Source: Methanosphaerula palustris E1-9c
GTDB lineage: Archaea; Halobacteriota; Methanomicrobia; Methanomicrobiales; Methanospirillaceae
Assembly: GCF_000021965.1 (NCBI RefSeq)
Contig: NC_011832.1
Span: 992,001 to 1,056,000 of the forward strand
Length of the DNA stretch: 64,000 nucleotides
Direction of reading: 5' to 3'
Positions 26,642 through 34,603 of this stretch are shown piece by piece. The position numbers and the translations under genes are program-made. Within the stretch, counting starts at the first letter, position 1; each line of letters opens with the position of its first letter. The notes beneath the pieces were generated by a model. That model ran no database searches and was not told where the DNA came from. It saw nothing but the letters and a program-made list of their open reading frames with translations.

Positions 26642-29128
26642 TCAGAGCCAGTCCTTATATTTCCGGGATCCATCTTCATTCTTCTCTTCAACATTCTCTT
26701 CTCTCATCCCGTCTCCCTGCTCTGGTGTTGAGGCGGGGGGGGTCTGGAGCCGCTCGACGAGTTCGTTCATCGTCATCACCCGGAGGTAGGACTCCTCCTG
26801 GATGAATGGGGTGTAGAAGAGCACATCCCCGCTCCGGTCGATGGCGATCACCCGGTATCCGATCTCTTCAGCCCAGTGGGCGATCGAGTCGGGCACGGGC
26901 AGACTTGGGACTGAAGAGAGGTTGAGGATCTGGGTCAGCCGGTAGTCCTGGTTTCTGGACTGCATCCACTCGTCCTGCTCGACCTGATGAAGCAGGGCGG
27001 CCAGGGTGTCGACGTTTCCGGTCTGGGGATCAAAGGCTGCGACCTTGTCGAGGGCGATCAGGGTCCGCGGTGAGAGGGAGACACCTTCCCCGATCACGAG
27101 CCCAGATGGCCTGACCTCTCTGGCCACGCCATGCTGTGGTCTGTGGGGCTGCCCCTTAGAATTGGTTTTCCCCCGTGTCTGGTAGATGATCCCGGCCGCT
27201 GCGATCAGAAAAACCACAAGGAGGGGATAGATCAGGTATCCGGTCCATGGGTGCTTCTGGTCTGCATCTGCTGCACTCGCATCGACCGGCTGTTGAGACT
27301 GGACCGGCTGGACGGTGGTGGCGTTGGTGGTGACCGTCGACTTCTTTGTCAGGGACGTGACCAGTAGGGCTGTTGCGACTGCGGTTGGAGCGCTTGTCTG
27401 GATCGCTGCATTTGCATCGACAGTGGTAGCCGGGACCAGCGTTGACCCGTCGAGTGGTGTCAACGTGAACTTCAGTGGTGTGGTGATCGTCTTTCCTATC
27501 GTGTCGATACCCTCCGGACTCCAGTAGGCGTGGTGATGGTAGTCCAGCTCGGTCTCTGCCCAGATCTGGTATTCCCCGGGTTCATACAGGGAGTTGCCGG
27601 TATCCCAGGCCGTCCCGTCGGTCCCGGAGACCAGGAAGGAGTTGGAGGTGATGGTCAGGGGGTCCAGCTGGGTGGCCACCCCCTTTGTATCGATCACAGA
27701 GGTGAAGATGGATCCTGTCGGGCTCTCGATCTTGATCGCAACCTGAGCCCCGGTCTGACGGGTGAGGAACCCTTCCAGGTTGCTTGTCAGGACAAAGGAG
27801 ATGTGCCGTCCTTTCAGCACGGTATCTCCCTGAACCGGACGATTGGCTGTCACATCCATGACCGTCAGCGCCAGGGAGGGGACTGCAACCGTAAAGACCG
27901 GGGTCTTTGGGGTAGAGTTCAGGTTGTACCAGATCCCGGGATAGGCCGATGGGTGGACTGCGAAGTCAGTGACGTCGTTGACGATCATCATCTGCGCCGG
28001 TGCGCCGGTCTGCGGGTCGACCCCAGTATTGAAACAGCCGAGCGTGTAGCCGTTCTGGACCCCTGTGCTGACGATGTTCAGTCCGATCTCCCCAGCATAC
28101 ACTGTCGACCCTGCGGATCGGATCACATTCACTCCTGTTGCCGTGACCCCTGATGTTGCAGCGGTCTGGACTGATGCTGCATTGACCAGCCCTGTATTGA
28201 GTTTTATCGGGGAGGTTGCCACGGGAGCGGAGCTGGGCAATACCTGGGGGGTAGAAACAGATGCGGTGCCTGGCTGATAATTGGTTGTCAGCTGTTTTCC
28301 CTGAACGAAGGTCGGAGATTGATACTGTGTGGTCTGTGTCTGGACCTGGGTAGTTACTGGTGAAGGTGTCGGGGAAGGAGTTGGCGTTGGCGTTGGTGTC
28401 GGCGTCGATAACACCTGAGTCAGTGCTGCATACCACTTGGCCGCGATCTTCTTCTCCCCACTCTCATCCGGGTGAACCCCTGCGGACTGGGTGTCTGCGA
28501 TTCCATCGAACCCGGTGTACATGTCGACGACCGTTATCGGCGACTGAGCGGTGCTTTTCTGGGCTGCAAGCACGGGTATCGCGGCATTCAGGGCGAGCAG
28601 GTTGTCCCGGGAGACGGCTGTTGGTGGTATCTGGGCCAGCAGGATCCGGACGTTCGGGTTCTTCTGCCGAATCGTATCGATGATCCGGCCAAGGCTGTAG
28701 ATGCTGTGCTGTGTCGGGACATCGTTCAGGACATCATTGGTCCCGAGCATCACCAATGCGACGTCTGGCGTGTAATGAGTCAGCCAGTCTGACAGGTGTC
28801 CCTGTGTATCTCCATCAACACCATCCAGGATTCCTGAGGTTGTATACCCGCCATGCCCTTCATTGTCCTGGTCGAAGTCCAGGTTAAAGTTCGGGTCGGT
28901 CCAGCTCCCGACGAAGTCCACGTCATACCCTGCTGACTTCAGTTCGTTCCAGAGCCAGTATCGATATGTCGGATGGCTCGCAGCCTCAGTGGTATCGGTC
29001 AATCCTTTGGTCAGCGAGTCCCCAAGTGGCATGATCTTCACCGTGGCCGTAACTGCCGGCGTGAATGCAAGTCCCAGGCAGAACACCAGTGCGATCATTA
29101 GAAGCAGTGCGAGCGTTTTCTGTTTCAT
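26642..29128 (-). CDS. Cell-surface SGNH/GDSL hydrolase with DUF3821 and cytoplasmic tail
   Basis: An 828-residue surface protein. A signal peptide occupies about residues 1-29. The SGNH esterase domain (about 30-240) has GDSLTKG (catalytic Ser), the GxND motif in LMLGTNDVLND and the C-terminal DxxH in VHPDESG. A Pro-Thr repeat linker follows, near residues 245-265, then a DUF3821-type beta domain of some 250 residues found in methanogen surface proteins. A membrane helix near residues 645-665 and a 155-residue cytoplasmic region complete it. The hydrolase probably acts on an extracellular ester or sugar; the tail may report or anchor. The domain order is read from the sequence; the substrate is not known. 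Confidence 0.85.
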   Translation of the reverse strand: MKQKTLALLLMIALVFCLGLAFTPAVTATVKIMPLGDSLTKGLTDTTEAASHPTYRYWLWNELKSAGYDVDFVGSWTDPNFNLDFDQDNEGHGGYTTSGILDGVDGDTQGHLSDWLTHYTPDVALVMLGTNDVLNDVPTQHSIYSLGRIIDTIRQKNPNVRILLAQIPPTAVSRDNLLALNAAIPVLAAQKSTAQSPITVVDMYTGFDGIADTQSAGVHPDESGEKKIAAKWYAALTQVLSTPTPTPTPTPSPTPSPVTTQVQTQTTQYQSPTFVQGKQLTTNYQPGTASVSTPQVLPSSAPVATSPIKLNTGLVNAASVQTAATSGVTATGVNVIRSAGSTVYAGEIGLNIVSTGVQNGYTLGCFNTGVDPQTGAPAQMMIVNDVTDFAVHPSAYPGIWYNLNSTPKTPVFTVAVPSLALTVMDVTANRPVQGDTVLKGRHISFVLTSNLEGFLTRQTGAQVAIKIESPTGSIFTSVIDTKGVATQLDPLTITSNSFLVSGTDGTAWDTGNSLYEPGEYQIWAETELDYHHHAYWSPEGIDTIGKTITTPLKFTLTPLDGSTLVPATTVDANAAIQTSAPTAVATALLVTSLTKKSTVTTNATTVQPVQSQQPVDASAADADQKHPWTGYLIYPLLVVFLIAAAGIIYQTRGKTNSKGQPHRPQHGVAREVRPSGLVIGEGVSLSPRTLIALDKVAAFDPQTGNVDTLAALLHQVEQDEWMQSRNQDYRLTQILNLSSVPSLPVPDSIAHWAEEIGYRVIAIDRSGDVLFYTPFIQEESYLRVMTMNELVERLQTPPASTPEQGDGMREENVEEKNEDGSRKYKDWL

Positions 29129-29319
29129 ACCTTGCCAGATCCCTTCTCAGTTGATTATTCTGATTTGGGATATGGATGGATTAATCTACGGTTATGATAC
29201 GGTACCTGCGTCTGAAATCGGTTCATCCTGCTCATATTTGCGCAGGCGTCTGTTCTGCCCCCACGCGAAGGTAGTTGTACTTTCTGTTGAAATGTATATT
29301 CTGTATTCAGAGGTCCCTG

Positions 29320-30027
29320 ATGAGTTCACCAGTACAGCAGACCACTATTCGGGCTGCTATCTTCGATATGGACAACACGCTGTTCGATTTTATGTATGCC
29401 CAACGGGCGGGGTGCAGCGCGGTCCTTTCGGTGCTCGGTCATCCGACTGACCCGAGCGTGCTCTTCCGCTACTTTCTTCGCCCTGACCATGGGTTTGAAA
29501 GCACGCAGAATATCCGGGATTATCTTGTGGATCTCGGTCATAACGATCCGAATCTCTTCCGGATCTGTGCGGCCCAGTATGAAGCGCGTAAACTCCAGGC
29601 GATCACTCCGTATGATGATGCACTGTCGACCCTTGAAGCGCTCAGGGATCTTGGAATCCCTCTGGCGCTGGTGACCGACGCCGATACCGACCATGCCCGG
29701 GGTCGGCTCAAGCAGGCTGGTCTGGAGAGGTTCTTTCCGGTGATCGTCACCCCCGACCAGACCGGTTCGCGAAAGCCCTCCCACTGTCAGTTTCTGTCAG
29801 CACTCGATCAGCTCCGGGTAACCCCGGCCGAGGCACTGATGGTTGGGGACAGTCTGCGCCGGGATATCTACCCGTGCACCGAACTCGGGCTGATCACGGC
29901 GTACGCGGCCTATGGCGATCAGAGCCCGTTTCCTTCGCCGGTCTGTACCCCCGATCTGGTTCTCGAAAGACTGGACCAGATCCTCGACCTCTTCCCAGCA
30001 TACTCCGGTGCTGTTCGTCAGGCATGA
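29320..30027 (+). CDS. HAD-superfamily hydrolase (phosphatase)
   Basis: A 235-residue Rossmann-like phosphatase. Motif I is FDMDNTLF (nucleophile Asp), motif II is in ALVTDA, motif III has the lysine of SRKPSHCQF and motif IV is in MVGDSLRRDI. The start at 29320 is preceded by AGAGG; an upstream in-frame ATG at 29275 adds 15 residues without conservation. Its stop is 15 bases before the type IIG-like gene, so it may be part of the same transcript. Substrate unknown. Confidence 0.9.
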   Translation: MSSPVQQTTIRAAIFDMDNTLFDFMYAQRAGCSAVLSVLGHPTDPSVLFRYFLRPDHGFESTQNIRDYLVDLGHNDPNLFRICAAQYEARKLQAITPYDDALSTLEALRDLGIPLALVTDADTDHARGRLKQAGLERFFPVIVTPDQTGSRKPSHCQFLSALDQLRVTPAEALMVGDSLRRDIYPCTELGLITAYAAYGDQSPFPSPVCTPDLVLERLDQILDLFPAYSGAVRQA

Positions 30028-30042
30028 GGATGTGGTTCGGGT

Positions 30043-32523
30043 ATGCCTGATTCACTGGTCAGATCGTTTTATGCAGAGCAGGATCGTGGTTCGGCCCGTC
30101 CGGCTGCTATGATCAGGGAACAGTTCCTGGTACCCTTCTTTTGTGCCCTTGGATGGACGGATAATTTTCCAGCATTCCCGGTGCTGGTCCTCGACGAGGG
30201 GGGACAGGCCCAGCCTGATATGATCCAGAACCTGATGCGGGACGCCTTCTCTGCTGCAATGTCTGTTGCGGTGGTGACCAATTTTGCCTGGATGGAGATC
30301 TATGACCTGAGTCCTCCTCCCCTCCCGGGTTCGGCCCCCCCCATTCCTGTGCACATTACCGCGGGTGAGTACGCGGAACGGTGGCCTGAACTGGTGGCCT
30401 GCCTCTCTCCATTCGGATGGCCGGCCCGGGGCATGCGGCCCGGGTTGATTGCAGTGCTCGGGGACCTGATCGCCGGCTGGCGGCTGGTCCTTGGACGGAG
30501 TCTCTGCCGGGAATATCACTTCCTCTCTGATGAGGATCTGAACCTCTCGGTGCAGCGAACGATCGATCTTCTCCTCCTCCTCTGGATCCTCCACGAGCGG
30601 GGGTATCTCATCCAGTTCAATCCTCTCCAGGACCGGGATGAGACTGATCTTCAGCATCACCTGATCTCCCAGGCGGCAGCATTCATCGATCCCGTCAGGA
30701 TCACCCCGCCGTTCTGGCCGGGAGATGAGGCAGTGTTGGAGGTGATGCGTGTACTCACCAGTCCGGCCTGCCCGGTCTCCTTTGGCCAGGTCAGCCCGGA
30801 ATCGCTGGCGGTGGCCTTTGATGCGGTCCTTCGGATCCTCCTCGTTGCGGACGGTTCAAGGATGACATCACGTCCGAACCGATTGATCACGGCGGTCGAC
30901 GGTGCTGCAGAGGTTCCCGACCGGATGCTTCGGACGGTTGCGGAGGTCGCCCTTCTTCCGCTCCTCAAGGGTCGGTCCCGGGTGGAGCAGACGGCACTTC
31001 GTGTGGTCGACCCCTGCTGTGGAACAGGAAGGCTGCTGATCGTGACCTGCCGGCTTCTCCTCTCCGCCGCTCACACTCCGGCGGAGACGCTGTCCATCGT
31101 CTCCGGGATCGAGCAGGATCCGTGCCAGGCCGAGGTCGCAGCGCTGCTGCTGGTGCTGACTACCCTGGATCATGCTCCCCTCTCTGCAGGATCGGAGGTG
31201 ACCCCGGCGATCTGGCGGGGAAATCCGCTGGTCGGTTCGGACTTTCTTGGAGATCCGCTCGCCTGTCTCCTCTCCGGACGCCGTCTGCGCAGGCTGGCCC
31301 CATTCGACTGGTCCACTTTTCCAGTGCCAGACCGGGGGTTCGATGCGGTGCTGACCTCGGTACCGGTAGCCATGACCCGTCTGTTTCTGGGGGAGGACAC
31401 CTACCTGCCAGGCCATTATTCCACCTTCCAGACCGGAGGGGATCGGTCCATATGCCTGGTCGAGCGGATGATGCCGATGATCGCTGCAGGTGGAGCTCTC
31501 ACAATCCTCTTCTCTGATCGCTGGCTCCACGGGGACCGGTCCGGTCTCTTTCGTGCATGGCTAACCGGTCAGAGGCTGCACCTGGTCGCAGAGATTCCTG
31601 CCCTGCCTCTGGTGGGGACCGACAACCACCTCTGCCTCCTCAAGGTCGGTCCGGGAGAACCAGCACCGACCGTGGCTGCTGCGATCCTCGAAGGTTCGAC
31701 CCTGCCGGATTCGGCAGGTGCCCTCGTCAGAGAGACCCATCTTTTTCCGGTGGCCGACCTCTCCACACAGGGATGGGTGCTCGAGGACCGGCGATATGCA
31801 ACCCTGATCGAGCGCCTGACTGCAGAAGGCCGGCCGCTCGATGACCTGCTCTTCGGGGGGATTGTGGATGGGGAGGCTGTCCCCAACCAGTTCCCGGCCG
31901 GTCAACGCAGGCAGTTGATCCGGTGGGATCGGCGGATCCGCCCGCTCTGCAGGCCGGTGGTCACAGTCGATCGGCCGTATACCCTGCCGGTCAGGGAGGG
32001 ATACTGCATCCCCGATCCGGGTCGAACGCTCCCAGAGCGGGTCGACCGGCAGCTGCGACGGGGGGGTGTGATTATTACCGGGAATGGACAGGATCCCCTC
32101 TTCTGTCAGGGCCAGAAGATCCTCTGTTCAACCCGGACCGGAGTATGCACCTTCGATGAGGATGGCACTGGAATCCTGGGACCGGATACAGTGGCGCTGA
32201 TCACCTCAGATCTCTTCCTGCTCGGGTTGCTGAATTCAACCATTGGGGGCGGTTTGCTCACGGGTCAGCACCCCGGAACAGGGGGTGACCAGATGCTGAA
32301 CGCCGACCTCGTCTCCAGGGTTCGGGTGAGGGTGCCGGATTGTTATGATCCTGTCGAACAGGGGCTGCATGACCAGGTCGTTACGCTGGTCGGCCGACTG
32401 CTCGGTCTGTACTCTCAGTCAGCCCCGGCTGGGCTGGCCGAACCGCTGATCGAGCGGGTCGACTGGTGTATTTGCACCCTTTATGGGGTGTCGGATGAGG
32501 AGATCGCGGTGTTGAAGAGGTAA
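30043..32523 (+). CDS. Type IIG-like DNA methyltransferase homologue lacking catalytic motifs
   Basis: An 826-residue protein with the architecture of a type IIG restriction-modification enzyme. There is an N-terminal segment ending in VVTNFAWMEIYDLS (residues about 75-92), as in nuclease domains of this family, a helical region with LNLSVQRTIDLLLLLWILHERG (about 165-187), a methyltransferase domain with motif I DPCCGTGRLLI (about 322-333), and a TaqI-type C-terminal specificity domain ending in DWCICTLYGVSDEEI. The NPPY motif is replaced by a TSVPV segment (about 438-442), and no PD-(D/E)XK residues are recognisable at the N-terminus. It might be a DNA-binding relic or a repurposed protein. 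It is shorter than most type IIG enzymes. Upstream is a HAD phosphatase gene 15 bases away. Confidence 0.72.
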   Translation: MPDSLVRSFYAEQDRGSARPAAMIREQFLVPFFCALGWTDNFPAFPVLVLDEGGQAQPDMIQNLMRDAFSAAMSVAVVTNFAWMEIYDLSPPPLPGSAPPIPVHITAGEYAERWPELVACLSPFGWPARGMRPGLIAVLGDLIAGWRLVLGRSLCREYHFLSDEDLNLSVQRTIDLLLLLWILHERGYLIQFNPLQDRDETDLQHHLISQAAAFIDPVRITPPFWPGDEAVLEVMRVLTSPACPVSFGQVSPESLAVAFDAVLRILLVADGSRMTSRPNRLITAVDGAAEVPDRMLRTVAEVALLPLLKGRSRVEQTALRVVDPCCGTGRLLIVTCRLLLSAAHTPAETLSIVSGIEQDPCQAEVAALLLVLTTLDHAPLSAGSEVTPAIWRGNPLVGSDFLGDPLACLLSGRRLRRLAPFDWSTFPVPDRGFDAVLTSVPVAMTRLFLGEDTYLPGHYSTFQTGGDRSICLVERMMPMIAAGGALTILFSDRWLHGDRSGLFRAWLTGQRLHLVAEIPALPLVGTDNHLCLLKVGPGEPAPTVAAAILEGSTLPDSAGALVRETHLFPVADLSTQGWVLEDRRYATLIERLTAEGRPLDDLLFGGIVDGEAVPNQFPAGQRRQLIRWDRRIRPLCRPVVTVDRPYTLPVREGYCIPDPGRTLPERVDRQLRRGGVIITGNGQDPLFCQGQKILCSTRTGVCTFDEDGTGILGPDTVALITSDLFLLGLLNSTIGGGLLTGQHPGTGGDQMLNADLVSRVRVRVPDCYDPVEQGLHDQVVTLVGRLLGLYSQSAPAGLAEPLIERVDWCICTLYGVSDEEIAVLKR

Positions 32524-32680: not shown

Positions 32681-34603
32681 ATGGCTCCTGGAATTGAGAT
32701 GTACCTGCTCAGATTATATGTGGCTGGTGAGACTCAGGAATCTGCCCGGGCAATCCAGAACCTTGTGCGTATCTGTGAGACATACCTGGTGGGACGGTAC
32801 GACCTGGAGGTGATCGATATCTCCCGGCATCCGAGTCTCTCACGGGATGAGCAGATCGTTGTGACCCCGACGCTGATCAGGAAGGGGCCGGCTCCTGAGC
32901 GGCGACTGATCGGCGACCTGTCAGACACCCGGGTGGTCCTTCGGGGTCTTGGTTTACCTGAGGGGGGGCTTCAAAACGAACCGAACGATTCAGGATCTTC
33001 TGCAAACCCGCAGGTCATAAAACTCTGTGAACGTTTGCGGGAGACTGGCGTCGATAGGATGGATATCTGGACCGGCCAGGTGGATGGAATCGTCGTCCCG
33101 ACCTCTGATGAAGACAGGCTATTCATAAACCCCGGGGGGGCATCTCCGTACTGGACCTTTGTCGAGACGATGAATGAGGGGGCGGTGGTCATCGATCGGG
33201 CCGGAACGATTCTGTACTGCAACCGACGGTTTGCTGCGATCATCGAGGCGCGTATGGAGATGATCTCAGGTTCATTCTTCGATAGTTGGGTATGTTCTCA
33301 TGATCACCTCCTCTTTGAAGCACTCTCTGTGGCCGGTGCAGATCGGCAATCTTCAGGGGATCTGCAGATGGTCAATACCCGGGGGCGCCTGGTCCCGGTT
33401 CATCTCTCGCTCAGCCCGTTTACGGGCGGAGGGGTCTCTGAAATTTCTATCGTGGTGACCGATCTGACCACGCGGAAACATAACTGTGCGTTGCTTCGAT
33501 CCGAACATCTGGCCCATTCGATCCTCGAACAGGCCGCCGACCCGATCGTCGTGATCAACGCTGAAAAGGTGATCATCAGGGCCAATACCGCGGCAGTGGA
33601 GATGGCCGGGACCAACCCCCTTCTTGCACAGTTTGATTCGGTCTTTCCACTCTTCCAGGTGATTGGGGATGAAGAAATACCCTTCTCACCGTCCAGAATC
33701 TCCAGTGCCGGCAAGCAGTTACAGGGGATGGAGGTTCTCTTTCGAAGAACGGACAGGTCACTCTTTTCCTTGCTGATCAGCGCGGCACCGATAATCGGAG
33801 AATTCGGGGAATCGCCCGGATGCGTGGCTGTGATGACCGATATCACGGCCCAGAAACAGGTCGAAGGGGAACTTCGAAGGACACTCGACGACCTGGCCCA
33901 CTCCAATCAGGACCTGCAGCAGTTTGCGTACATCGCCTCGCATGACCTGCAGGAACCACTCAGGATGGTGGCCAGTTACCTGCAGCTCCTCGAGCGAAAG
34001 TATCGGGACCGGCTCGATTCGGACGCCCAGGAGTTCATCGGGTTTGCGGTCGAGGGTGCGAACCGGATGCAGCAGCAGATCAACGACCTGCTGGCGTACT
34101 CGCGGGTCACGAGCCGGGGCCAGCCTCTCAAGCCGGTGAGCGCCGAAGAGGCATTGGCCTCTGCACTGAGTCACCTGGCCCTGAAGATCGAAGAGACTGG
34201 TGCCACGGTCACCCATGACCCACTTCCGATGGTCAGGGCCGATCTCCCGCAGCTGGTTCAGGTCTTTTCGAACCTTCTCGACAACGCACTCACATTCCTC
34301 CGTCCCCAGGTCGCCCCGGTGATCCATCTCTCGGTGGAAGATCAGGCTGGCTGGGTGGTCTTTTCTCTGCACGACAATGGGATCGGGATCGACCCGGAGT
34401 TCTATCAGCGGATCTTTCAGATGTTCCAACGACTTCACTCTCGCGCGGAGTATCCCGGGACCGGTATCGGGCTTGCGATCTGCCAGCGAATTATCGAGCG
34501 GCACCATGGGCGGATCTGGGTCACTTCGGTTCCCGGCAGTGGATCGACCTTCTCCTTTACGATCCCTGGTGTTAATGGTCACCTTCATGGTCCTGATCGC
34601 TGA
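32681..34603 (+). CDS. KaiB-domain PAS sensor histidine kinase
   Basis: A 640-residue kinase. Residues 8-92 are a KaiB-like domain: LRLYVAGETQESARAIQNL, the DLEVIDISRHP strand and the VTPTLIRKGPAPERRLIGDL segment. Two PAS domains follow (about 160-270 and 275-395). The HisKA domain has the phosphorylated His in IASHDLQEPLRM (residue about 421), and the ATPase domain (about 505-635) has VFSNLLDNA, DNGIGID and PGTGIGLAIC. The KaiB fold at the front is the layout of cyanobacterial SasA, which uses it to bind KaiC. No KaiC gene is in the window. GGAGGG at 32668-32673 supports the start. Confidence 0.85.
   Translation: MAPGIEMYLLRLYVAGETQESARAIQNLVRICETYLVGRYDLEVIDISRHPSLSRDEQIVVTPTLIRKGPAPERRLIGDLSDTRVVLRGLGLPEGGLQNEPNDSGSSANPQVIKLCERLRETGVDRMDIWTGQVDGIVVPTSDEDRLFINPGGASPYWTFVETMNEGAVVIDRAGTILYCNRRFAAIIEARMEMISGSFFDSWVCSHDHLLFEALSVAGADRQSSGDLQMVNTRGRLVPVHLSLSPFTGGGVSEISIVVTDLTTRKHNCALLRSEHLAHSILEQAADPIVVINAEKVIIRANTAAVEMAGTNPLLAQFDSVFPLFQVIGDEEIPFSPSRISSAGKQLQGMEVLFRRTDRSLFSLLISAAPIIGEFGESPGCVAVMTDITAQKQVEGELRRTLDDLAHSNQDLQQFAYIASHDLQEPLRMVASYLQLLERKYRDRLDSDAQEFIGFAVEGANRMQQQINDLLAYSRVTSRGQPLKPVSAEEALASALSHLALKIEETGATVTHDPLPMVRADLPQLVQVFSNLLDNALTFLRPQVAPVIHLSVEDQAGWVVFSLHDNGIGIDPEFYQRIFQMFQRLHSRAEYPGTGIGLAICQRIIERHHGRIWVTSVPGSGSTFSFTIPGVNGHLHGPDR

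Follow-up and report, generated by a model that had tools for sequence, protein, structure and literature searches.

Why would a methanogen keep a long, uninterrupted gene that has the layout of a type IIG restriction-modification (R-M) enzyme and the catalytic motifs of neither its nuclease nor its methyltransferase? R-M genes are known as fast-moving, fast-decaying defense genes. The window, by which we mean the whole stretch of 64,000 nucleotides of Methanosphaerula palustris E1-9c that was analyzed, contains on the forward strand, at 30043 to 32523, an open reading frame (ORF) that starts with ATG and runs for 826 codons. For a random sequence with the base composition of the gene, the chance of an open frame this long is estimated at about 1e-10; each of the remaining five frames of the same interval contains 8 to 32 stops. 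The GC content at the three codon positions is 0.69/0.48/0.70, and coding neighbors are alike in this respect. The ORF and the stop statistics rule out a random open frame or a frameshifted pseudogene, and the original prediction was right that the reading frame has no stop or frameshift. The block from 30001 to 32000 has a GC content of 0.625, the highest among the 2-kb blocks of the window. The gene, its parts, and its flanks are as follows.

26642..29128, minus strand: large GDSL lipase/DUF3821 protein on the divergent flank, also conserved in the g5 loci (Pfam, synteny)
29275..30027, plus strand: HAD-type phosphatase, which may in fact start at the ATG at 29320 (Pfam HAD_2, 3.3e-23)
30043..32523, plus strand: eroded type IIG R-M homolog of 826 amino acids, very probably a catalytically dead pseudoenzyme (ORF, full-length alignment, PADLOC, AlphaFold2/Foldseek)
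30043..30402, plus strand: remnant of the N-terminal nuclease domain, amino acids 1 to 120, PD-D...ExK deleted (alignment with L047/L046, column conservation)
30436..30828, plus strand: helical linker, amino acids 132 to 262 (W146, R147, and L150 conserved; model helices H132-157, H163-185, H228-239, and H252-262)
30901..30918, plus strand: former motif X (YYTP in intact enzymes), now G-A-A-E-V-P, amino acids 287 to 292 (alignment, clade tally)
31009..31029, plus strand: motif I, SAM-binding DPCCGTG, amino acids 323 to 329, kept (alignment, clade tally)
31105..31119, plus strand: motif II acidic region GIEQD, amino acids 355 to 359, kept (acid conserved throughout the clade)
31357..31368, plus strand: former catalytic motif IV, NPPY changed to SVPV, amino acids 439 to 442 (alignment, clade tally)
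31774..32202, plus strand: target-recognition region, TaqI/CamA-like, amino acids 578 to 720, approximate (alignment)
32206..32520, plus strand: C-terminal helical part with LLNS and LYG motifs, amino acids 722 to 826 (alignment, model)
32681..34603, plus strand: histidine kinase with N-terminal KaiB (PF07689, 2e-23) and PAS domains, lying 157 bp beyond the end of the eroded gene (Pfam)

The protein aligns end to end with intact, Eco57I-type type IIG enzymes of related methanogens. Together with the AlphaFold2 model and its Foldseek matches, this alignment bears out the predicted order of a nuclease-like front, a helical linker, and an N6-adenine methyltransferase fold, of which the front is a remnant. 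The SAM-binding motif I is unbroken (D323-P-C-C-G-T-G329), as had been predicted, and the acid of motif II is E357. The column that holds NPPY in the intact relatives reads S439-V-P-V442, the SVPV-type replacement read earlier from the sequence. This column is flanked by a conserved GFD and by Y454, which align in all relatives, and the intact proteins have their NPPY there; hence, the alignment is not shifted, and a misaligned motif IV is ruled out. The YYTP of motif X is replaced by AEVP. At the front of the protein, where the original prediction found no PD-(D/E)XK triad, the alignment shows that the PD-D...ExK stretch is deleted at approximately amino acids 40 to 60 and that a strand/helix remnant is present after the deletion (amino acids 58 to 88). 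The target-recognition domain (TRD) aligns with that of the intact relatives and is spanned by the Foldseek matches; with the window protein, Pfam TaqI_C does not reach significance. In TspGWI, a type IIG-like enzyme, a mutation that changes only the N of NPPY leaves almost no cleavage or modification (PMC3968444). Because the N, the first P, and the Y of NPPY are gone in the window protein and the nuclease residues are gone as well, neither activity is expected, and we regard the protein as very probably catalytically dead.

Among general profiles, Pfam gave only a subthreshold N6_Mtase match to the window protein, and the PADLOC profile REase_MTase_IIG matched it at 8.6e-13. As the match to this type IIG profile illustrates, proteins of this kind may be scored as R-M systems in surveys that rely on profiles. 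The AlphaFold2 model has a pLDDT of 80 and a pTM of 0.74; motif IV and parts of the TRD have pLDDT values under 50. Its best Foldseek matches are CamA, M.BseCI, MmeI, the type IIG enzyme BpuSI, BrxX, and TaqI, with low global TM-scores (0.26 to 0.46 on the query), perhaps from a different placement of the domains. With the single window protein as query, a PDB sequence search gave no match and a scan of the contig collection found no relative. A profile scan of the contig collection returned mostly bacterial intact enzymes, and nearly all matches were intact, an outcome that is partly biased and supporting only because the scan pattern, GGFD..[GSE][ANS][PL], favors N-P at motif IV. The plasmid search gave a single weak match, 25% identical to an Eco57I methylase, and no sign of plasmid carriage.

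A class-wide search of 232 genomes found matches in 127, and 80 stretches were classified. The relatives are of two kinds, intact type IIG enzymes of about 1030 to 1080 amino acids and eroded proteins mostly of 700 to 950 amino acids, lengths that come largely from draft genomes with mechanically picked start codons. In the full alignment, the NPPY-type motif IV is present in all 24 intact proteins and in 0 of the 51 eroded ones, the window protein included, with the motif IV column being less sure in the very divergent members (g6, g9, and g28). The split is the same for ExK (0/51 versus 24/24 intact relatives), and the TP of YYTP in motif X is found in 6/51 eroded versus 24/24 intact proteins. 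An aromatic residue or histidine stands at position 4 of motif IV in a single eroded protein of the 51, and the region of motif VIII is changed in the eroded clade. In motif I, the Asp is kept in 45/51 eroded proteins (six clade members have lost it) and GxG in 44/51; all 24 intact proteins have motif I. The acid of motif II is found in 51/51 eroded proteins, and motif II in 24/24 intact ones. The replacements of motif IV differ between branches and include APPPYR, NPPEG, NLPDG, CCPPE, GDPV, SFPA, HPPHF, and SVPV. Thus, the homolog search and the motif alignment confirmed the loss of NPPY for an entire clade. Within the host family (Methanosphaerula, Methanoregula, and relatives), 12 genera have eroded copies, apparently one per genome, and fragments occur in one genus of another family.

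How often were the sites lost? Trees of eroded proteins and intact enzymes were made with FastTree and, after removal of the motif columns, with IQ-TREE under LG+G4, a simple model; the IQ-TREE tree sampled 25 eroded proteins, including the window protein. Both trees put every eroded protein to one side of a branch that lies within the intact enzymes. The IQ-TREE support is 92/99 for all eroded proteins (unstarred), 97/99 for the part without g15 that holds the window protein, and 99/97 for the window protein with g5. A topology joining group B with intact sister enzymes was rejected (p 0.0003), whereas one with the g15 group outside was not (p 0.25); the deep joins are uncertain, given the long branches in several rows and genera and the simple model. 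The window protein itself sits on a branch of 1.28 and has a best identity of 29%. Because support is 97/99 without g15 and the topology with g15 outside has p 0.25, the motifs were probably lost once on the line leading to the window gene, and g15 may represent a second, separate loss. Across the clade, the two sites disappeared in no more than a few events. Most likely, the gene encodes a pseudoenzyme that has been inherited vertically and kept in the chromosome.

The g15 copies L046, L107, L135, L136, and L137 keep an eroded nuclease domain and a partial motif IV (HPPHF, SFPA), an intermediate state.

In g4 and g15, the genes for deoxyhypusine synthase (dys) and TiaS, the tRNA-Ile2 agmatidine synthetase, often flank the eroded copies on either side. 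Three g4 genomes have an intact sister enzyme (L113, L114, and L115) in the same neighborhood as the eroded L092, L098, and L099. Among the matches listed, an eroded copy appears in none of the seven genomes that carry an intact sister enzyme. Intact and dead copies at the same chromosomal place in different species provide a way to study the transition between the two.

Is the eroded gene simply a decaying relic, a functionless R-M gene that drifts slowly and is open only since its decay is recent or slow? The dN/dS ratio is measurable between close relatives only, and the nearest relative of the window gene is 29% identical; the values therefore describe the relatives. Most eroded pairs have a dN/dS of 0.17 to 0.32, compared with 0.11 to 0.24 for intact type IIG pairs; the g10 pairs reach 0.43 to 0.54 by NG86 and up to 0.65 by YN00. 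Genes flanking the same pairs are mostly at 0.05 to 0.3, with a CheW-type gene at 0.42 and a short, partly aligned ORF at 1.09. Hence, the eroded genes of the relatives evolve faster than most of their neighbors, yet are under purifying selection. Their elevated dN/dS, highest in g10, is what a relic would be expected to contribute, as are the very long branches in several genera, the intact sister enzymes at the same place in other species, and the single-contig g4 genome G205, which has only a 250-amino-acid C-terminal match (C1:584382-584816) and perhaps lost its copy. On the strength of the g10 values and the G205 fragment, the gene may be disappearing from some lineages. However, more than 45 genomes from 12 genera have open frames (25 of the 39 g4 genomes carry the gene), many of them only 20 to 50% identical to each other, and neutral drift over such a distance is not expected to spare frames of 700 to 950 codons. 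The residues of motifs I and II are kept where motifs IV and X vanish, and most eroded pairs have the low dN/dS given above. We therefore consider a relic unlikely. The open frames, the clade-wide loss of the same motifs, and dN/dS ratios far below 1 in those relatives for which they could be measured agree with the original prediction that the protein is maintained, and we hold it to be probably maintained for a function.

Which part of the protein is then under constraint? Active R-M enzymes change specificity. In pairs matched for the identity of the methyltransferase part, the TRD and C terminus are 0.69 and 0.72 identical in eroded pairs versus 0.55 and 0.52 in active pairs (methyltransferase identity bin of 0.70 to 0.80) and 0.81 and 0.82 versus 0.61 and 0.66 (bin of 0.80 to 0.95), where the pairs are nonindependent and the upper bin consists of five eroded pairs. 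Linkers are less similar in eroded than in active pairs in the lower bins. As judged from these comparisons, constraint appears to have shifted toward the TRD and C terminus in the eroded clade, which, unlike active R-M enzymes, seems not to be changing its specificity.

What could a protein of this kind do? The retention of motifs I and II alongside the loss of motifs IV and X points either to continued binding of SAM or SAH in the pocket or to a structural need of the fold, and the retained recognition end points to DNA. In enzymes of this type, motif X is also part of the lining of the cofactor pocket, and its disappearance, like the loss of the motif I Asp in six clade members, speaks against SAM binding. 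On balance, a mechanism that involves DNA binding and SAM, as the sequence conservation and the original prediction suggest, is plausible and has in our view an even chance of being correct. According to this mechanism, the protein is an Eco57I-type type IIG descendant in one methanogen family that has lost its nuclease and methyl-transfer sites; its TRD and C-terminal regions would still grip DNA, probably at a particular site, and its methyltransferase fold would still hold SAM or SAH as a structural or SAM-gated clamp. The outcome would be a noncatalytic DNA-binding factor that might act as a regulator, a roadblock, or an accessory. A more specific version, which we consider rather unlikely, is that the protein is a SAM-gated, sequence-specific DNA-binding regulator, in which recognition and cofactor sensing would have been kept, both activities discarded, and the target site frozen.

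A related proposal, which we find improbable, is that the eroded protein is a noncatalytic subunit binding DNA for an active methyltransferase encoded elsewhere, as METTL14 does for METTL3. METTL14 provides a precedent, since the (D/N)PP(W/Y)-type motif of its methyltransferase fold is degenerate (EPPL versus DPPW) and its role in substrate binding is noncatalytic (PMC5023411), and the host genome encodes two strong HsdM-type N6 methylases elsewhere. However, METTL14 belongs to a eukaryotic RNA system in which the catalytic partner is known, and its donor site is degenerate, whereas the eroded clade keeps most SAM-motif residues; type IIG relatives are single-chain enzymes, and no methyltransferase gene was recognized beside the eroded genes among the annotated neighbors, the neighborhoods having been compared mostly by clustering and annotated in part. 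Still less probable, in our judgment, is that the protein remains a methyltransferase with another substrate or a rearranged active site. The SAM-pocket residues are kept and some branches have fixed a motif of their own, such as APPPYR in g4 and g11, but the motif IV column varies widely, its fourth position almost never holds an aromatic residue or histidine, most clade members lack motif X, and the region of motif VIII has changed.

The reading as a noncatalytic, DNA-binding descendant of a type IIG enzyme can be set against known systems. With the Eco57I family (RM.Eco57I; PADLOC PDLC03604; Pfam PF07669), the eroded protein shares the domain order and motif I. It differs in lacking PD-D...ExK, NPPY, and YYTP and in its changed motif VIII region; moreover, the eroded genes are inherited at fixed chromosomal places, and their recognition part no longer seems to diversify fast. 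It descends from a known family and fails that family's defining catalytic features; hence, it should not be classed among the type IIG enzymes. CamA, the orphan adenine methyltransferase of Clostridioides difficile (PDB 7LNI/8VPG), and M.BseCI (7QW5) are the best Foldseek and profile matches, covering the methyltransferase and recognition parts, but these are DNA-methylating enzymes whose catalytic motif is intact, and their identity in the Foldseek alignment is 11 to 13%. PglX/BrxX of BREX has a related methyltransferase fold, to which clade members show weak profile similarity; in contrast to PglX/BrxX, the eroded proteins have lost the catalytic motif, and no BREX core gene was recognized near their genes among the annotated neighbors in a comparison that was mostly by clustering. 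Inactive MmeI-family genes, which reportedly carry disruptive mutations and are readily reactivated (PMC5867850), are likewise inactive R-M genes carried by genomes, whereas the eroded clade has open frames and has lost its motifs across genera. Searches of the open-access literature on inactive or domesticated type IIG genes turned up no description of the eroded family. A clade that has lost both activities and is conserved in a dozen methanogen genera would be a clear case of R-M domestication for a nondefense role.

The neighborhood of the window gene is shared with the g5 loci, in which the order is GDSL lipase, HAD phosphatase, eroded gene, and kinase, with a kinase-family gene also downstream in g5. 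On the same strand, only 15 bp separate the HAD stop (30027) from the ATG of the eroded gene downstream, and the original prediction had suggested that the two perhaps act together. An HAD gene is found upstream in 3 of the 5 g5 loci (adjacent in two) and has a dN/dS of 0.14 in g5, but it is absent beside the gene in the two other g5 loci and in all other genera, where the neighbors differ, so that we consider a two-gene unit very improbable. As a general partner, the HAD phosphatase is ruled out by synteny, its association being local to the window and g5. Thus, of the two features whose conservation was in question, the altered motif is conserved as a clade-wide loss of NPPY, whereas the HAD neighbor is not conserved beyond g5. 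In many g4 and g11 loci, a pair of small genes that includes one for a PIN-domain protein (VapBC-like) follows the eroded gene (L031:6245-6960, L140:2171-2566).
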